NCBI GenBank assembly: GCA_017535315.1 | Contig: JAFXUD010000062.1 | Coordinates: 124,001 to 188,000, forward strand | DNA length: 64,000 nucleotides | Direction of reading: 5' to 3' | DNA from: Victivallales bacterium | GTDB lineage: Bacteria; Verrucomicrobiota; Lentisphaeria; Oligosphaerales; Oligosphaeraceae | Part shown: positions 50,010 through 59,584 of the stretch, in pieces | Position numbering within the stretch: the first letter of the stretch is position 1 | Layout: each line of letters begins with the position of its first letter | Notes under the pieces: generated by a model | The model's input: only the letters and a program-made list of their open reading frames with translations | Databases searched by the model: none | What the model was told of the DNA's origin: nothing | Program-made: the position numbers and the translations under genes

Positions 50010-52181
50010 TCATTTTGCTGATTCGCCAGCCTTGAAGACATTCTTCTGGAGAATGTTGTTGATCTGGTTCTTCATCTCTATAAGGATTGCATCGCTGTTT
50101 TTTTCATTGCCCAGGAAGTAACTGGAGGCATTTGCGAGTTTTTCCTTCAAGGCGTTGATGGCGTTGACGAAGCTGTCGAGGGCAGCCTTGACGGCGCTGG
50201 ACAGGGCATCGAACACCTCATTCAGAATGTCGTTGAAGAAATCCGTAATCGTGTTCATCAAGTTGGACATGAAGTTCTTGGCGAAGTCCATCAGTTTTTG
50301 GGCAAGATTGTTGAGTGTGTCGGTGATTTTGGAGATGAGATCCTGCATGGCATTGGCAAAATCGCCATCCTTGAGGGCATTCCAGCAGTTGGTCAAGGCA
50401 TCCATGATGCCTCCGCCGTTCAGGCCGAGTGCATCGAAAACCTGTTCCAGAATAGGGTATTTTTGTGCAAGGGAGTTCAAGAGCCCGTCAATCTTCTTCT
50501 CCAGTTCGTCCGTGGCAATGGTGGTACCTGCATTGACAAGATTGTCGAGGAAGTTGCTTGCATCGCCGTCAAGGAGGGCGGCTATGGCCTCTTTCGCTTT
50601 GTCTCCTGCCTCCTTTCCGAACTTCTCACTAACGATATTGCCGACAAAATCGGCGGCTCCGCCCTTGGCGGTGTCCCATGCTGCTTCCCAGTCACCGTTG
50701 ACGGCTGACTCGATGGCTTCCATGACCTCCTGCTTTTGTTCGTCGGTGAGGTCGGTCTGCTCCAGTAGGCTGGCGATGCCATCCTTGGCGGCGTTTGTAA
50801 CCAGGTCTTCAAGACCATCGGTGATGGCATTCACACCCTCGCCCTCGGCAATGGAGGTCAAAAACTCCTTTGCGGCATCGGCGGTCCCAGGGGGCAGGTA
50901 CTCGTCGATAATCTTGTTCAGACCGTCTTCAAGCGCCTCTTCGAGGGTCATCTCGCCATCGGCGATTTTCTGTGCATAATCTTCAATGGCTTGCGCAGCC
51001 TCTTTGCCGATATATTTTTCGAGCTGCTCTTCCGCTTTGGAGATCGCGATGTCTTTTGCAAGGTCGAGGAGCTCATTGGCAACGTTGGTGAGACCTGCGG
51101 CGATCTTGTCGGCCAGCTCGTTGGCCTCATCAACGACCTCTTGGTCATAACCTTCCTCCTCCAGCTCCTTGGCGAGTTCGCGAGCAGCCTCCTCGCGCTC
51201 CTCCTTGGGCTTGGATTCATCGTTGACGGTGTCAAGTAGGTTGTCGATGTGATCATCGCGGGTATCGTTATAATTGTCGGAAGTATCTTTGACGGTATCT
51301 TTCACCGTATCTTTGGTGACCTTGTCTTCGGTTTTATCAACGGCCTTGTCCAACTCCTTGTCAACGTTGTCACCGCCTTTATCAATGGCGCCCTTCATTT
51401 CCTCAGCGCAGGTCATGAGAGCCTTCTTGTCTTCGTCGGGCAGGTCGGAATCCTCAACCTCGTCCTTGAACTCATCAAGCAAATCCTCAATCATGTCCTT
51501 GATGTCATCGTACTTGTCCTTAAGGTCGGAGGCTTTGTCATAGAGGTCATAGAGCTTCTTGAGCTTGCTTATGATATTCAGGAGGTCATTGAGCTTGTCG
51601 GCTGCGAAGAGAGCGGCAATACCCGTGATGAGGTCTTTCAGCTTGTCAAAGACGCTCGGACCATCGTCCTTCTTCTTATCATCGCCTTTGGGCTCATTCC
51701 CCTTGGGCTCATCCCCTTTTGGCTCGTCTTTTTTCGGCTCATCGACTTTCGGCTCATCCTGCTTTGGTTGGTCTGCTTTGGGCTCGTCTGCTTCAGGTTC
51801 TTTCCCTTTCCCTTCCATAAGCTGTCCTGCTCCTCCTTTGTTCTCCATGTCTTGACCGCTGCCAACCACGAAGTTCCAGACAGTTCCAATGACATTGCCA
51901 AGGGTGTCAACCACTTTTCCAGCGGTATCTGTGACTTTTCCAATCACGTTGCCATATTGATCCACGACCGTTCCCGCCTTGTCTGCAATGTAACCAACCA
52001 CATTGCCTGCAGCATCGACGACTTTCTCCCCAATTTCGCCGACGCCACTCTTTACCTCCGAAGTCGTGTTGGAAACTTCCGACTTGAAATCATTCCACAA
52101 ATCCCCTAATAGGCTGTCAGCAGGCACAACCAGTTGGAACGAAAGCAAAGCCGCCAAAAATATGCGTAAAAACTTGTTCAT
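50010..52181 (-). CDS. Secreted, acidic, repeat-rich helical protein of unknown function
   Basis: 723 residues. Signal peptide (MNKFLRIFLAALLSFQLVVPADS). Residues 54-98 are short repeats of the type VVDAAGNVVG, VVDQYGNVIG and VVDTLGNVIG. Residues 132-166 are seven units of a DEPKx pentapeptide. The remainder is very acidic, Lys/Asp/Glu/Ala-rich and largely helical, with segments of alternating Leu-rich amphipathic helices (SVFDKLKDLITGIAALF; LDLAKDIAISKAEEQLEKYI; NFMSNLMNTITDFFNDILNEVF). No catalytic motif or Cys-rich domain was recognised, and I cannot assign a family. The ATG overlaps the stop of the gene at 52178 (ATGA, strong SD AAGGAGG), so the two are cotranslated. Confidence 0.85.
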   Translation of the reverse strand: MNKFLRIFLAALLSFQLVVPADSLLGDLWNDFKSEVSNTTSEVKSGVGEIGEKVVDAAGNVVGYIADKAGTVVDQYGNVIGKVTDTAGKVVDTLGNVIGTVWNFVVGSGQDMENKGGAGQLMEGKGKEPEADEPKADQPKQDEPKVDEPKKDEPKGDEPKGNEPKGDDKKKDDGPSVFDKLKDLITGIAALFAADKLNDLLNIISKLKKLYDLYDKASDLKDKYDDIKDMIEDLLDEFKDEVEDSDLPDEDKKALMTCAEEMKGAIDKGGDNVDKELDKAVDKTEDKVTKDTVKDTVKDTSDNYNDTRDDHIDNLLDTVNDESKPKEEREEAARELAKELEEEGYDQEVVDEANELADKIAAGLTNVANELLDLAKDIAISKAEEQLEKYIGKEAAQAIEDYAQKIADGEMTLEEALEDGLNKIIDEYLPPGTADAAKEFLTSIAEGEGVNAITDGLEDLVTNAAKDGIASLLEQTDLTDEQKQEVMEAIESAVNGDWEAAWDTAKGGAADFVGNIVSEKFGKEAGDKAKEAIAALLDGDASNFLDNLVNAGTTIATDELEKKIDGLLNSLAQKYPILEQVFDALGLNGGGIMDALTNCWNALKDGDFANAMQDLISKITDTLNNLAQKLMDFAKNFMSNLMNTITDFFNDILNEVFDALSSAVKAALDSFVNAINALKEKLANASSYFLGNEKNSDAILIEMKNQINNILQKNVFKAGESAK

Positions 52182-53211: not shown

Positions 53212-54534
53212 TTACCCCATGAAAAGACCGCCGTCAATGGAGATGACTTGGCCTGTTATGTAGTCGGCCTCGTCTGAGCAGAGGAAGGCGACTAGGGCGG
53301 CGACGTCCTGCGGTTTGCCAAGGCGGCGTGTGGGGATTTCACGCAGGATATCCTTCATCTTGACAGGCGGGATATTGGCTGTCATGGGGGATTCAATGAA
53401 GCCTGGGCTGACGGCGTTTACACGGATGCCAAGCCCCGCCATCTCTCGGGCGGCAGAGCGTGTCAACCCTACAAGTCCTTCCTTGGCGGCGGCATAGTTG
53501 GCACGGTTGGCAGAGCCCATGCGACCCGCGTCCGAGGCAAGCGAGACAATGCGCCCCCAGCGCTGTCGCGCCATCGGCATGGAGACTTCCCGCATGAGAC
53601 GGAAGGGGGCGTTCAGGTTCAACTCAATGGAGGAGGCCCACTGCTCATCGGTCATAAAGGAAACGGTGGCATCGTTCAGCCGCCCCGCGTTGTTGACTAG
53701 AATGTCAATGCGCCCCCACTTGGCAAGAACATTCTGTACAAGCTTTTTGCATTGTTCGGGTGAGGCGAGGTCGGCTGTGAACACAGCAGCCAGCGCAGGT
53801 GCAAGTTCTTGCGCCAGTGCCTCCGCCTTGGCGGTGTTGCTATTGCTATGAAGCGCCACGGCAATGCCCTTGGCAGATAGCGCACGGGCAATGGCGGAGC
53901 CTATCGCACCCGAAGCCCCCGTTATCAACGCAACACGCTGTCCGATGGCCGTTACAGGCGCGGCAACCTGTGTGGGCTTTGGAACGACTGGAGTGGCCAC
54001 TGCTGGGGCAGGAGACGTGGTTGGTGCTGGTGTAATCGTTGTACCTTGCTTGGAGGCGATGAACTCCTCAACATCCTTGCGGTGGACGGTGTCGCGCTTG
54101 CAAAAGGCGGCGACCTCGTCCAGCGAGATGTTGTTCTGCTTGGCAAAGGCCTTTGCGGCGGGGGCGACCTTGTAGGCGGGCTTCTGTGGTGCGACCTCTG
54201 GGACGATGCCCGACAGGTCGATGGAGAGCGCATTTGACTGCAAGTGGCTGCGCATCAGCTCCTCGTTGGAAGCGGTTACATCAGGGGCGGCCTCGCCCTC
54301 TGCACCGATGGCGCAAATCACGTAACCGAGCGGGACGGTGCTTTTTTCCTGAGCAAAGATGCCTAGGATGATTCCGTCGCAGGGAGCCTCGAACTCCTCC
54401 ACGACCTTGTCGGAGATAAGCTGCACAAGGATGTCACCTTGTCTGACTTTCTGCCCGACGGAGACAGACCAGGGGCCGATGGTGGCCTCGTCCATGTTTT
54501 CATATAGTTTTGGAAGCTGGATTTGCGTGGACAT
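53212..54534 (-). CDS. Lipoyl domain - peripheral subunit-binding domain - SDR fusion
   Basis: 440 residues from the ATG at 54534; an in-frame TTG at 54555 is rejected. Residues 1-80 are a biotin/lipoyl domain with Lys43 in LISDKVVEEFEAPCDG at the modified position. Residues about 118-162 (PAYKVAPAAKAFAKQNNISL) are an E3-binding domain as in E2 acyltransferases. A Pro/Ala/Thr linker (163-198) leads to a complete FabG-like SDR: TGASGAIG (205-212), NNAG (281-284), Ser334, Tyr347, Lys351 and a family-typical C-terminus. An E2-like swinging arm has thus replaced its acyltransferase with a dehydrogenase. It should be lipoylated and dock on an E3-like protein, but no E1 or E3 gene is in the window. 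Confidence 0.88.
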   Translation of the reverse strand: MSTQIQLPKLYENMDEATIGPWSVSVGQKVRQGDILVQLISDKVVEEFEAPCDGIILGIFAQEKSTVPLGYVICAIGAEGEAAPDVTASNEELMRSHLQSNALSIDLSGIVPEVAPQKPAYKVAPAAKAFAKQNNISLDEVAAFCKRDTVHRKDVEEFIASKQGTTITPAPTTSPAPAVATPVVPKPTQVAAPVTAIGQRVALITGASGAIGSAIARALSAKGIAVALHSNSNTAKAEALAQELAPALAAVFTADLASPEQCKKLVQNVLAKWGRIDILVNNAGRLNDATVSFMTDEQWASSIELNLNAPFRLMREVSMPMARQRWGRIVSLASDAGRMGSANRANYAAAKEGLVGLTRSAAREMAGLGIRVNAVSPGFIESPMTANIPPVKMKDILREIPTRRLGKPQDVAALVAFLCSDEADYITGQVISIDGGLFMG

Positions 54535-54551
54535 GGTATTGCAGTTTGTTA

Positions 54552-55454
54552 TCAATGAAGAAGGGAGGCGGTATGGATTCTCAGGCCTTCAGCCAATGGC
54601 ATCTGCGGCATGTAGAGGCCGTCGGCCTTCAGTTTGGCCAGGTCATAGACGCGGTGGCATAGGAAGGAGATGTTTTCAGGATGCTGCGCCTTGTACTCCT
54701 GGATGGGAAGCTCCTTGATTTTTAGCGGGCGATTCAGATAGTCCGCGATAATTTTATAGTAGGTGGCGGATTCGGCGATTTCAGGACCCGCGCAGTTGTA
54801 GAACTGGCAGCAGGACTTGGGAACATCGACGCAACTCAAGATGACCTTTGCCAAATCCTCCGCGTAGATGGGCTGTTGGAGCAGCGTTCCCGCCGCCGCC
54901 AGCTCCAACGGCTCGCCGCGTAGGATACGGGCAATCAGCTCGGGGTCGCGTCCGTGGTTGGGCAGGCAGCCCAGCTTCGAGTTTGGACCGTAGATGTGGC
55001 ATGGACGGAAAATGGTCCAGTGGGAGAAGCCGCCGTTCTGCGCGGCGTTCAGGAACACCTCTTCGCAGCGGCGCTTGTTCGCACCGTAACTGTCATCCGT
55101 CAGAAAATGCATATTGGTTTCGGGCTGCGGGAACTGGCGGAACGCAGGGTCATAGACGAAGTCCGTCGAGATGAAGGCGAAACGGGCGCATCTTGGCGCG
55201 AGGGCGAAGACATCCTGCATGGCGTCGGGTCGCTTGAAGCCGAAGCAATCCACGATGAAGTCGAAGCAGCCTGCATTGGCGATGGCGGCTTCCAGCGAGC
55301 CAGGGGTGAAACGATCCGCCGTAATCTGTTTCAGGCCAGCGGGGATGGGTTTAATGCCACGTGTGACGACAGTCACGTCATGTCCTGCTTCCAACGCCAC
55401 TTTTGCCAATGTGCCGCTTACGAATCCTGTACCGCCGATAAGTAGAATCTTCAT
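54552..55454 (-). CDS. NAD-dependent epimerase/dehydratase (SDR-extended)
   Basis: 300 residues from the ATG at 55454 (SD GGAG); the longer upstream frame overlaps the HPPK fusion. MKILLIGGTGFVSGTLAKVALEAGHDV is the GxxGxxG nucleotide-binding opening. FISTDFVYDPA and DSYGANKRRCEEVF carry the Ser/Thr and YxxxK active-site elements, and TIFRPCHIYGPN and a downstream IYAEDLAKVI follow the extended SDR pattern. It probably works on an NDP-sugar or related metabolite. It ends 17 bases before the lipoyl-SDR fusion. Confidence 0.88.
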   Translation of the reverse strand: MKILLIGGTGFVSGTLAKVALEAGHDVTVVTRGIKPIPAGLKQITADRFTPGSLEAAIANAGCFDFIVDCFGFKRPDAMQDVFALAPRCARFAFISTDFVYDPAFRQFPQPETNMHFLTDDSYGANKRRCEEVFLNAAQNGGFSHWTIFRPCHIYGPNSKLGCLPNHGRDPELIARILRGEPLELAAAGTLLQQPIYAEDLAKVILSCVDVPKSCCQFYNCAGPEIAESATYYKIIADYLNRPLKIKELPIQEYKAQHPENISFLCHRVYDLAKLKADGLYMPQMPLAEGLRIHTASLLH

Positions 55455-55503: not shown

Positions 55504-57213
55504 CTAGGACAAAAGTTTTGGTCCTTCTGGTTTTTCGATGCCTGGGTTGATGGTGAGGTCAGAGCCGATTCTCTTTCCAGCCTCGTATGCATTAGAATCC
55601 AAGTTCACACGCCCATGTGAGATATTCCGTGTGTGCGGGAATCTAGTGTTGTAGTAGCTGTTGAGCTCCTGACTTCCTGCCAATATAATTGCTTTTGTCT
55701 CCTCTTCAAGGGAACCCTGCATCTTTTTCAGCAGGGCTGAGATGACCCCGTAGGCAAAATCCCGTTTGCGACGCTGAAGTGTGGAGGAGATGTGGTTTTT
55801 CTGGCAGAATTTGCCCCACTCCAACTCAATGTGCATGAGTATGCTATCGCGCACGTACTGCGCAATCTTTACATTGCGGACGGTTCCGCACATAAAGAAC
55901 TGCCTGCATTCGGAGGCTGTCTTGTGGCCGTAGCGTTTTGTCGTGATAGCGGGGACATTGACCATAATGGTGGTGATGGAAAACATCTCGCGCAGAAAAT
56001 GCGCCATCATCCGCTCATCCAACTGGATGGTGCCCCTAGGCTGCCCCAGGCCAACCGTAACGTACTGTTCCTTCTGATTCAGATTCTCCTCGCTGATACC
56101 GTACTTTGCCATGATATCGACAGCTTTGGAGAGAGCCACCTCCGCCTCGTGTTCATCGCCTTTCTCCGCCAGCACCAGTAGCTTGCGGACTCGCTCAATA
56201 AGTGGGTCCGTCTTTTCATCCTGTTCCATTCCGAGGCATGCGTCCAGCGTTTGGTAGTTATCCCCCGCAGAGGGATTCGCGCCGATACGTCGGCACATTT
56301 CGTGGAAGGTCTTGCCGTGCGGCATCTCACCATCGGCCTCAGGGCAGAGGAAATGGACGAGCTGGTGTGCAACCTCATGGTAGAAGACATCGAGAACCGC
56401 ATACCACGGATGCTCCGTTATTAACTCATAACTGATGGTGATTCTGTTTTGCGTCGGCGAATACCATCCGTGCTTGGTCTTGCTTTCGGCAAAGTCAATG
56501 CTGGGTTGTAGAACTTTCTGCGCCTCGTATCGTTTCAAGTTGCCGTAATGGACGATGTATTCCCATTCGCTTTTCAGCTTGTCGGCGGCCAGTTCAATGA
56601 AGGCGGGAAAGGGGGGAAGCATATAGAGTGGGAGAGGCTCTGGTTTCTTGTCTTCATCTTGAACAAGGCATGATTTCCCTGGATTACTGTTCCAAAGATT
56701 AAAGACGTTCACCCCGTTTTTCTGCTTCAACTCTTCCAACGTCTGTTTGGTTTTAAGCTGTCTTATGAACTGATTCAACGTGCTTTTAAAGCCAGGTATA
56801 AGGGTGTCGCTTGGCAGTAACTCGCTCAGAGGCTCCAGGACAAAGAGGCGCTGGTGCATCCTCGGGTGGGGGATGGTGAGATTGGGAAGGGAAATCTGCT
56901 GATTGTCGAAGAGCAGGATATCCAGATCAATGGGACGGCTTTCACGGCTGCTGTGAATGGCAGGACGGCCAAGTTGTCTTTCAATACCTTGGCAGAACTC
57001 CAGAAGCTCCAGCGGGGTACCATCGAATGTGGCGGTGAGGGCCGTGTTCTTGAAGTCAGGGGTACCTGGCACGCAATCAACTGGCTTGGTGGTGTAGATG
57101 CGTGCAGATTTGATGTCGCAGAGTTTTTGTGAAAGCAGGACAATTGCCTTGCGAAAGTATTCCTCTGTGTTGCCTATATTTCCTCCCAAGGCAATGGCAA
57201 CATGATGGGTCAT
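55504..57213 (-). CDS. folK: HPPK (FolK) fused to a SprT-like metalloprotease and DUF2786 region
   Basis: 569 residues in one uninterrupted frame from the ATG at 57213. Residues 1-145 are a full 6-hydroxymethyl-7,8-dihydropterin pyrophosphokinase: VAIALGGNIGNTEEYFRKA, ARIYTTKPVD, RPIDLDILLFDN and IPHPRMHQRLFVLEPL. Residues about 200-320 are SprT-like, with HEVAH (279-283) and a third ligand candidate His299 in HGKTFHEMC. Residues about 338-378 match DUF2786 (ERVRKLLVLAEKGDEHEAEVA and ISEENL), followed by a helical tail to the end. The middle and end resemble phage- and Bacteroidetes-type SprT/DUF2786 proteins. It is unclear why a folate enzyme is joined to them; no frameshift or internal stop is seen. 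Confidence 0.85.
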   Translation of the reverse strand: MTHHVAIALGGNIGNTEEYFRKAIVLLSQKLCDIKSARIYTTKPVDCVPGTPDFKNTALTATFDGTPLELLEFCQGIERQLGRPAIHSSRESRPIDLDILLFDNQQISLPNLTIPHPRMHQRLFVLEPLSELLPSDTLIPGFKSTLNQFIRQLKTKQTLEELKQKNGVNVFNLWNSNPGKSCLVQDEDKKPEPLPLYMLPPFPAFIELAADKLKSEWEYIVHYGNLKRYEAQKVLQPSIDFAESKTKHGWYSPTQNRITISYELITEHPWYAVLDVFYHEVAHQLVHFLCPEADGEMPHGKTFHEMCRRIGANPSAGDNYQTLDACLGMEQDEKTDPLIERVRKLLVLAEKGDEHEAEVALSKAVDIMAKYGISEENLNQKEQYVTVGLGQPRGTIQLDERMMAHFLREMFSITTIMVNVPAITTKRYGHKTASECRQFFMCGTVRNVKIAQYVRDSILMHIELEWGKFCQKNHISSTLQRRKRDFAYGVISALLKKMQGSLEEETKAIILAGSQELNSYYNTRFPHTRNISHGRVNLDSNAYEAGKRIGSDLTINPGIEKPEGPKLLS

Positions 57214-57230
57214 AATAGTCTGGTTCCTCT

Positions 57231-58574
<1,344 letters not shown>

Positions 58575-58597
58575 AGGTGGGGGATGATGTGCAGCGA

Positions 58598-59584
58598 TTA
58601 AAGTTCGGGTTTCACAGGCATTCCGCCATTGTGCATGGATTTGTCGATGGCGAAGACAAGTGCAAGGGACTTGATGGCGTCGGAGTATGGATTGATGAGC
58701 TCTTCCTGGGGAAGCGCGCCGCGCACGACATCCACGAATGTCTCGTCGCACTCCATGCCATAGTCGTTGCCTGCCTTGCCTGTAATGGTCATGTTGGGTT
58801 CGGTGATGGTGTAGTTGCCGCCGATGGAGTAGTTGATCTTGCAGCCGTTCTGCGCGTAGGCGTTGATGCCATTTTCACCAGGGCCAAAGCAGCCCGTGTT
58901 GAAGGTGCCGATTTTGCCGTCGGCGAAGGTGAGGATGGTGGAGGAGCAGTCCTCGACGTCGTTGTTCTCGATGTTGGTGATGATGCCTCTGCGGCAGGCG
59001 GACTGCACGAGGACCACGTCACCGAAAAGGTAGCGGCAGATGTCGAAGTCGTGGATGGTCTGCTCGATGGCCTGTCCACCTGATTCCTTCTTGATTCTCC
59101 ACCACCATACCATTGGGAAGCCGCCCAGGCGATGCGCGCTGATCATGGCGATTTTCTTGTGGTTGATCCAGTTCTTCACGAGGGGCAAAGAAGCGGAGTA
59201 GCGGCATTGTAGGCCAACCGCGCCGATCAGTTTCTGCTTCTTGATGCCTGCCAGAACCTTCTTCGCGTATTTCAGGTCAAGTGACATCGGCTTCTGCACA
59301 AAGAGATTGATGCCTTTCTCGATGGCTGCGAACTCCATGCCATCATGGGCGCCTGGCTGCACGCAGACATAGCAGGCATCCAGCTTTTCCTTTGCGAACA
59401 TCTCGTTGTAGTCCTGATACTGGCGGCAGCCGAAACGATCCGCTGTGGCTTGAGTACGCTCGGGGCGCAGGTCGCACGCTGCGACAATCTGGGCCTTCTC
59501 CTTGAGCTTGTCGTAATGACCGAAGTGGAACTGGGCGATGCCGCCGCATCCGATGAAACCGACTTTAATCTTCTTCTTGGCCAT
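58598..59584 (-). CDS. Gfo/Idh/MocA-family oxidoreductase
   Basis: 328 residues from the ATG at 59584 (SD AAGGAAAAG); the upstream GTG-type extension is less likely. KIKVGFIGCGGIAQFHF is the Rossmann opening, and FVQKPMSLDLKYAK has the catalytic-region Lys of the EKP motif (here QKP). GQAIEQTIHDFDICRYLFG contains a second conserved segment. It is an NAD(P)-dependent sugar or inositol oxidoreductase of unknown specificity. It ends 23 bases before the FHA-MoxR gene and seems to begin the seven-gene set running to 50010. Confidence 0.92.
   Translation of the reverse strand: MAKKKIKVGFIGCGGIAQFHFGHYDKLKEKAQIVAACDLRPERTQATADRFGCRQYQDYNEMFAKEKLDACYVCVQPGAHDGMEFAAIEKGINLFVQKPMSLDLKYAKKVLAGIKKQKLIGAVGLQCRYSASLPLVKNWINHKKIAMISAHRLGGFPMVWWWRIKKESGGQAIEQTIHDFDICRYLFGDVVLVQSACRRGIITNIENNDVEDCSSTILTFADGKIGTFNTGCFGPGENGINAYAQNGCKINYSIGGNYTITEPNMTITGKAGNDYGMECDETFVDVVRGALPQEELINPYSDAIKSLALVFAIDKSMHNGGMPVKPEL

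Follow-up and report, generated by a model that had tools for sequence, protein, structure and literature searches.

A single open frame in a Victivallales genome joins a folate enzyme of the folK1 type (HPPK, FolK) to a SprT-like metalloprotease with a DUF2786-DUF7168 tail. The gene lies on the minus strand at positions 55504 to 57213 of the window, the whole 64,000-nucleotide stretch of DNA that was analysed, starts with ATG and encodes 569 residues. It is a new domain combination from known families, present in two species as far as was searched. It was read as a recent, lineage-specific fusion of two housekeeping genes, the product of which would be a two-function polypeptide with independent halves (probability roughly 0.6). 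This reading builds on an uninterrupted frame that two species share, on motifs that are intact, on purifying selection in each half and on the fact that elsewhere the genes are separate.

Gene structure and domain composition

Four domains of the fusion protein were recognised above the curated Pfam cut-offs, all encoded on the minus strand. The HPPK domain occupies residues 7-134 (56812-57195; PF01288, E-value 3e-29, 102 bits against a cut-off of 25.7) and was also assigned by the NCBIfam FolK equivalog TIGR01498 (94.8 bits, cut-off 54.1) and by residue alignment. It is followed by the SprT-like domain at residues 235-313 (56275-56511; PF10263, 7e-12, 45.6 bits against 25.6), DUF2786 at residues 339-375 (56089-56199; PF10979, 3e-10) and DUF7168 at residues 428-527 (55633-55932; PF23771, 8e-9). 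The SprT-like domain carries the zinc-binding motif HEVAH (residues 279-283; 56365-56379) and the distal zinc ligand His299 within HGKxF (56317-56319). In the family alignment the H, E and H of the first motif and the HG..F of the second are invariant, and the HExxH motif with its distal His is kept in stand-alone relatives. An earlier note, made from the letters of the DNA, had placed HPPK signatures in the N-terminal 145 or so residues and HEVAH, a distal His and DUF2786 in the same frame; the profile and alignment results agree with it on all of these and add DUF7168, which it had missed. The SprT-like and DUF2786 domains occur once each in the source genome, both in this gene. Between the two halves lies a linker of about residues 156-203 (56605-56748, minus strand), which was unconserved in a pairwise codon alignment with the second species.

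The gene for an FHA-MoxR ATPase (57231-58751, minus strand) stops 17 bases before the fusion start on the same strand, and a probable Shine-Dalgarno sequence, AGAGAGGA (57225-57232, minus strand), overlaps its stop codon. The two genes form a probable operon. The G+C content of the fusion (0.49-0.56) is within the range of its neighbourhood, and a foreign base composition was rejected on this ground.

Conservation in a second species

The fusion was found in the same frame in one further species, the goat-rumen Victivallales MAG RGIG3631 (G001; contig JAFTAC010000017.1, C558, locus L037), where the gene order is collinear with the window: Gfo/Idh-like oxidoreductase, FHA-MoxR, fusion, epimerase-like gene, lipoyl-SDR. 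The two proteins (569 residues in the window, 544 in G001) are 74% identical across the alignment, with 66-77% identity recorded between the two fusions, and the genes are separated by about 0.8-1 synonymous substitutions per site. In the pairwise codon alignment, dN/dS was 0.27 for HPPK, 0.09 for SprT and 0.17 for DUF7168; both halves are under purifying selection. When the same 135 residues were compared, dN/dS was 0.23 for the fused HPPK and 0.06-0.22 for stand-alone folK1 pairs, so that the fused copy comes near their range.

The linker had a pN of 0.47, compared with 0.08-0.19 in the domains. Its length differs between the two species by whole codons only, and the G001 protein is 25 codons shorter, mostly in the linker. 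The first ATG of the fusion is preceded by a Shine-Dalgarno sequence in both species. The in-frame start codons within the linker differ in position between them (M198 in the window, M182 in G001), none has a Shine-Dalgarno sequence, and no conserved internal start was found in the linker in this comparison. An in-frame second species, whole-codon linker differences, selection and non-conserved internal starts together make an assembly error or an overlapping gene pair very unlikely. The source genome is a 96-contig draft, which would leave room for an assembly or frameshift artefact, but the second draft genome carries the same in-frame fusion and gene order at the synonymous distance given above, and the probability of such an artefact is next to negligible. 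The fusion is a genuine single gene. The earlier note had proposed a search in relatives, and had counted a frameshift or assembly join in the linker, or separate genes in all relatives, against the fusion; the frame is kept over the whole of this distance, and G001 is fused as well.

One frame could still give rise to two products if the SprT half cut the exposed linker or if an internal start were used, which was considered rather unlikely. Eukaryotic SPRTN cuts itself, and a possible self-cleavage in the linker may be likened to this. The long linker is unconserved and probably disordered, and each species has one in-frame ATG close to where SprT formerly began. Against two products, these ATGs are at differing positions and without Shine-Dalgarno sequences, and no cleavage site was recognisable in the linker.

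Origin and distribution of the fusion

The search for the fusion covered 47 genomes from the order and 288 sampled from the phylum, and folK1-sprT was not found in them beyond the two species. In relatives, folK1 and sprT lie on separate contigs, 39 kb apart (G003) or 320 kb apart (closed genome G008). The FHA-MoxR gene of G008 lies apart from both, at a third location. A conserved neighbour pair was rejected, as folK1 and sprT were unlinked in every relative examined. The suggestion of the earlier note that a neighbour pair had fused is right in that the genes must have been adjacent before joining, but they are neighbours in no relative.

SprT-DUF2786-DUF7168 were found in identical order in 10 of 10 family members scanned. 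Judged by this distribution, the arrangement is an old architecture that is widespread in the class. The stand-alone proteins share with the fusion the three domains and their order, the HExxH motif and the distal His, but are without HPPK and have their own start codon. A relative of the same genus (G002) also has the three domains unfused; no folK turned up in its genome, which is 78% complete. In the SprT tree, G012 branches first, followed by G002 on a long branch and then by the two fusions, in nested starred clades. In G012, the lipoyl-SDR gene directly follows the stand-alone sprT, whereas in the window (53212-54555, minus strand) it is separated from the SprT half by the epimerase-like gene. 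This context and the nested tree indicate that the SprT half is at the inherited site and that folK1 was brought to it within the genus; folK1 thus appears to have moved to the ancestral sprT site. Since the fusion is confined to two species, the SprT-DUF2786-DUF7168 protein is class-wide and the same-genus relative is unfused, the comparison of genomes points to a recent, lineage-specific fusion after rearrangement and not to an old neighbour pair. The rearrangement would have brought a complete folK1, preceded by the FHA-MoxR gene, to a position upstream of an equally complete sprT-DUF2786-DUF7168 gene, with the reading frames merging through a short, probably disordered linker.

The HPPK half and a second HPPK-family gene

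In an alignment with the solved HPPK structure 8sk1 and about 40 relatives, the fused HPPK keeps R83, R93, D96, D98, H116 and R122; the rest of the folK1 proteins have them too. It thereby has the full HPPK signature of D-x-D, two Arg, and the His of the HP motif with the Arg that follows. These Arg, Asp and His residues are catalytic in E. coli HPPK. The loop RWGPR, with the Trp of many HPPKs, is replaced by HSSRESR across the whole folK1 subfamily. The source genome also has folP and folB. From soluble pterin and ATP, the N-terminal half would make 6-hydroxymethyl-dihydropterin diphosphate for folate synthesis.

The earlier note had asked whether this is the only folK in the genome. A second HPPK-family gene is located on contig C83 and has an orthologue in G001; the loci recorded for this gene are L036 482-955 (minus strand) and L058 7274-8170 (plus strand). 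It is under purifying selection (dN/dS 0.14), and may take on the folate role in part or in full. Both the C83 copy and its orthologue are without equivalents of R93 and H116, which are invariant in the folK1 type. This makes the fused copy the more likely of the two genes to carry out the folate step; on its conserved residues it is probably the working FolK. Several relatives have folK1 plus another HPPK-family gene, so that folK1 may have a side role; in G048, G051, G054, G056 and G057 a canonical folK directly follows a folB-like gene. Other bacteria are known to have two folK copies in a genome, usually with one outside the folate operon (PMC1971073). The second HPPK-family gene of the source genome adjoins genes for a DUF6785-like membrane protein and a sialidase-like protein, names that were read from the sequence and are not profile matches.

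Other fusions of HPPK

Two further folK1 fusions were seen. On contig C92 of G031 (L082 2861-5131, minus strand), DUF123, endonuclease III (HhH-GPD) and HPPK (folK1) apparently form a single frame, with ATG, GTG and TTG all absent from the 120 codons that precede HPPK. On contig C23 of G007 (L046 7395-8516, minus strand), a HAD hydrolase is in frame with folK1; here the frame reaches the contig end, and the last 38 codons before HPPK hold no ATG, GTG or TTG. Three fusions with three unrelated partners speak for a small, compact folK1 enzyme that withstands being fused, more than for anything special about SprT, and the folK1 subfamily seems to be a permissive fusion partner.

Another HPPK is joined to FolE2 (GTP cyclohydrolase), an enzyme of the same pathway, on contig C14 of G029 (L083 1552-3402, minus strand). 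This is the known, same-pathway kind. Previously described FolK fusions (FolB-FolK, FolK-FolP and FolB-FolK-FolP; PMC1971073, PMC4224340) likewise have a complete HPPK domain within a larger polypeptide, but their partners catalyse neighbouring folate steps, whereas the partner here is SprT-like-DUF2786-DUF7168. As this partner brings no other folate step, the gene does not belong with the multi-enzyme fusions of the folate pathway. No HPPK-protease fusion was reported in the literature searched.

The earlier note had also considered a folate-linked regulator of proteolysis, in which pterin or ATP on the HPPK half would control the protease, or the protease would trim folate enzymes. The covalent link between the halves is what speaks for such regulation. 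However, HPPK retains its catalytic residues, as an enzyme would, the linker varies in both sequence and length, in all other relatives the SprT protein has no HPPK attached, and folK1 is joined to unrelated partners elsewhere. The proposal gained no positive support from these results and is very improbable. If the halves did communicate, folate synthesis and SprT-type proteolysis would be linked for the first time.

The SprT-like half and its C-terminal module

For the NCBIfam profile NF003421 (full-length equivalog of E. coli SprT), the fusion scored 16.2 bits, below the cut-off of 175 bits, and it was therefore filed as SprT-like only and not as SprT itself. E. coli SprT and eukaryotic SPRTN share with it the SprT-like domain family, HExxH and the distal His; unlike them, the fusion has DUF2786-DUF7168 as its C-terminal region. 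DUF2786 alongside SprT was not encountered as a pairing in the literature searched.

The C-terminal 239 residues matched phrog_421, a phage protein family with DUF2786-DUF7168, over their full length, with both domains above cut-off; the match extends to 20 viral loci. In the phage contigs examined, these proteins stand alone, without protease or HPPK. Viral contigs matched only the DUF2786-DUF7168 part of the fusion, and tblastn gave no match to the SprT half in phage records; a phage or plasmid origin of that half was rejected accordingly. A defence system was also rejected, there being no PADLOC match.

For the tail, 14 viral proteins were combined with the proteins of the window and L037 in an AlphaFold (AF2) model (pLDDT 70). 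In this model DUF2786 is a helical hairpin and DUF7168 a beta-alpha-beta-beta-alpha unit, which at medium confidence is weakly KH-like. VIA-align listed many KH domains for DUF7168, several of them bound to ssDNA or RNA, with Z up to 5.6, which is below the firm level. A Foldseek search of the PDB for the C-terminal module found no match at E 0.001. A model of the whole fusion from a two-row alignment (pLDDT 34) was left out of the analysis.

By analogy with Spartan, we infer that the SprT-like half is a nucleic-acid-directed protease. With its complete zinc site, the C-terminal half would be a soluble SprT/Spartan-type zinc protease that most likely removes proteins stuck to DNA and is probably brought to nucleic acid by its DUF2786-DUF7168 tail. 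In the preferred reading, that of a two-function polypeptide, the HPPK and SprT halves are covalently joined but would act independently, each with its predicted activity and with no cross-talk between them.

Folate synthesis might instead be tied to repair. Reduced folates can release formaldehyde, which makes DNA-protein crosslinks, and a fusion of this kind could couple the pathways. SprT/Spartan proteases act on DNA-protein crosslinks in eukaryotes (PMC7782752). The second folK1 fusion in the order contains endonuclease III, also of DNA repair, so that two of the three folK1 partners are DNA-repair-type proteins, a single, thin thread in favour of a functional link. The HPPK product, however, is a precursor and not a formaldehyde-releasing reduced folate, the third partner is a HAD hydrolase, and the fusion is conserved in two species only. 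Pathway coupling was accordingly judged quite improbable. If true, it would mean that a folK subfamily is repeatedly tied to DNA repair, for example through folate-derived formaldehyde or thymidylate stress.

The fusion is of interest as an accident of evolution and as a test case, and the chance that it reflects a genuine tie between folate and repair is small. If both halves are active, it would be a clean case in nature of two housekeeping enzymes, unrelated to each other, that merged with no functional logic in evidence, and a caution against taking a fusion by itself as a guide to function (the 'Rosetta stone' argument). It also draws attention to SprT-DUF2786-DUF7168 as a class-wide protein that has its C-terminal module in common with a phage family of unknown function.

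Neighbouring genes

The lipoyl-SDR gene downstream of the fusion encodes a lipoyl domain and then a complete short-chain dehydrogenase in one protein, conserved to 90% in G001 and 60% in G012. Its front is E2-like, with the SDR in the position of the acyltransferase. At four loci in relatives (L041, L042, L048, L049), folK1 is found directly behind E1-alpha/E1-beta-like 2-oxoacid dehydrogenase genes. At 50010-52181 of the window (minus strand), a protein of 723 residues is encoded that has a signal-like start and long repeats rich in Lys, Asp, Glu and Pro.
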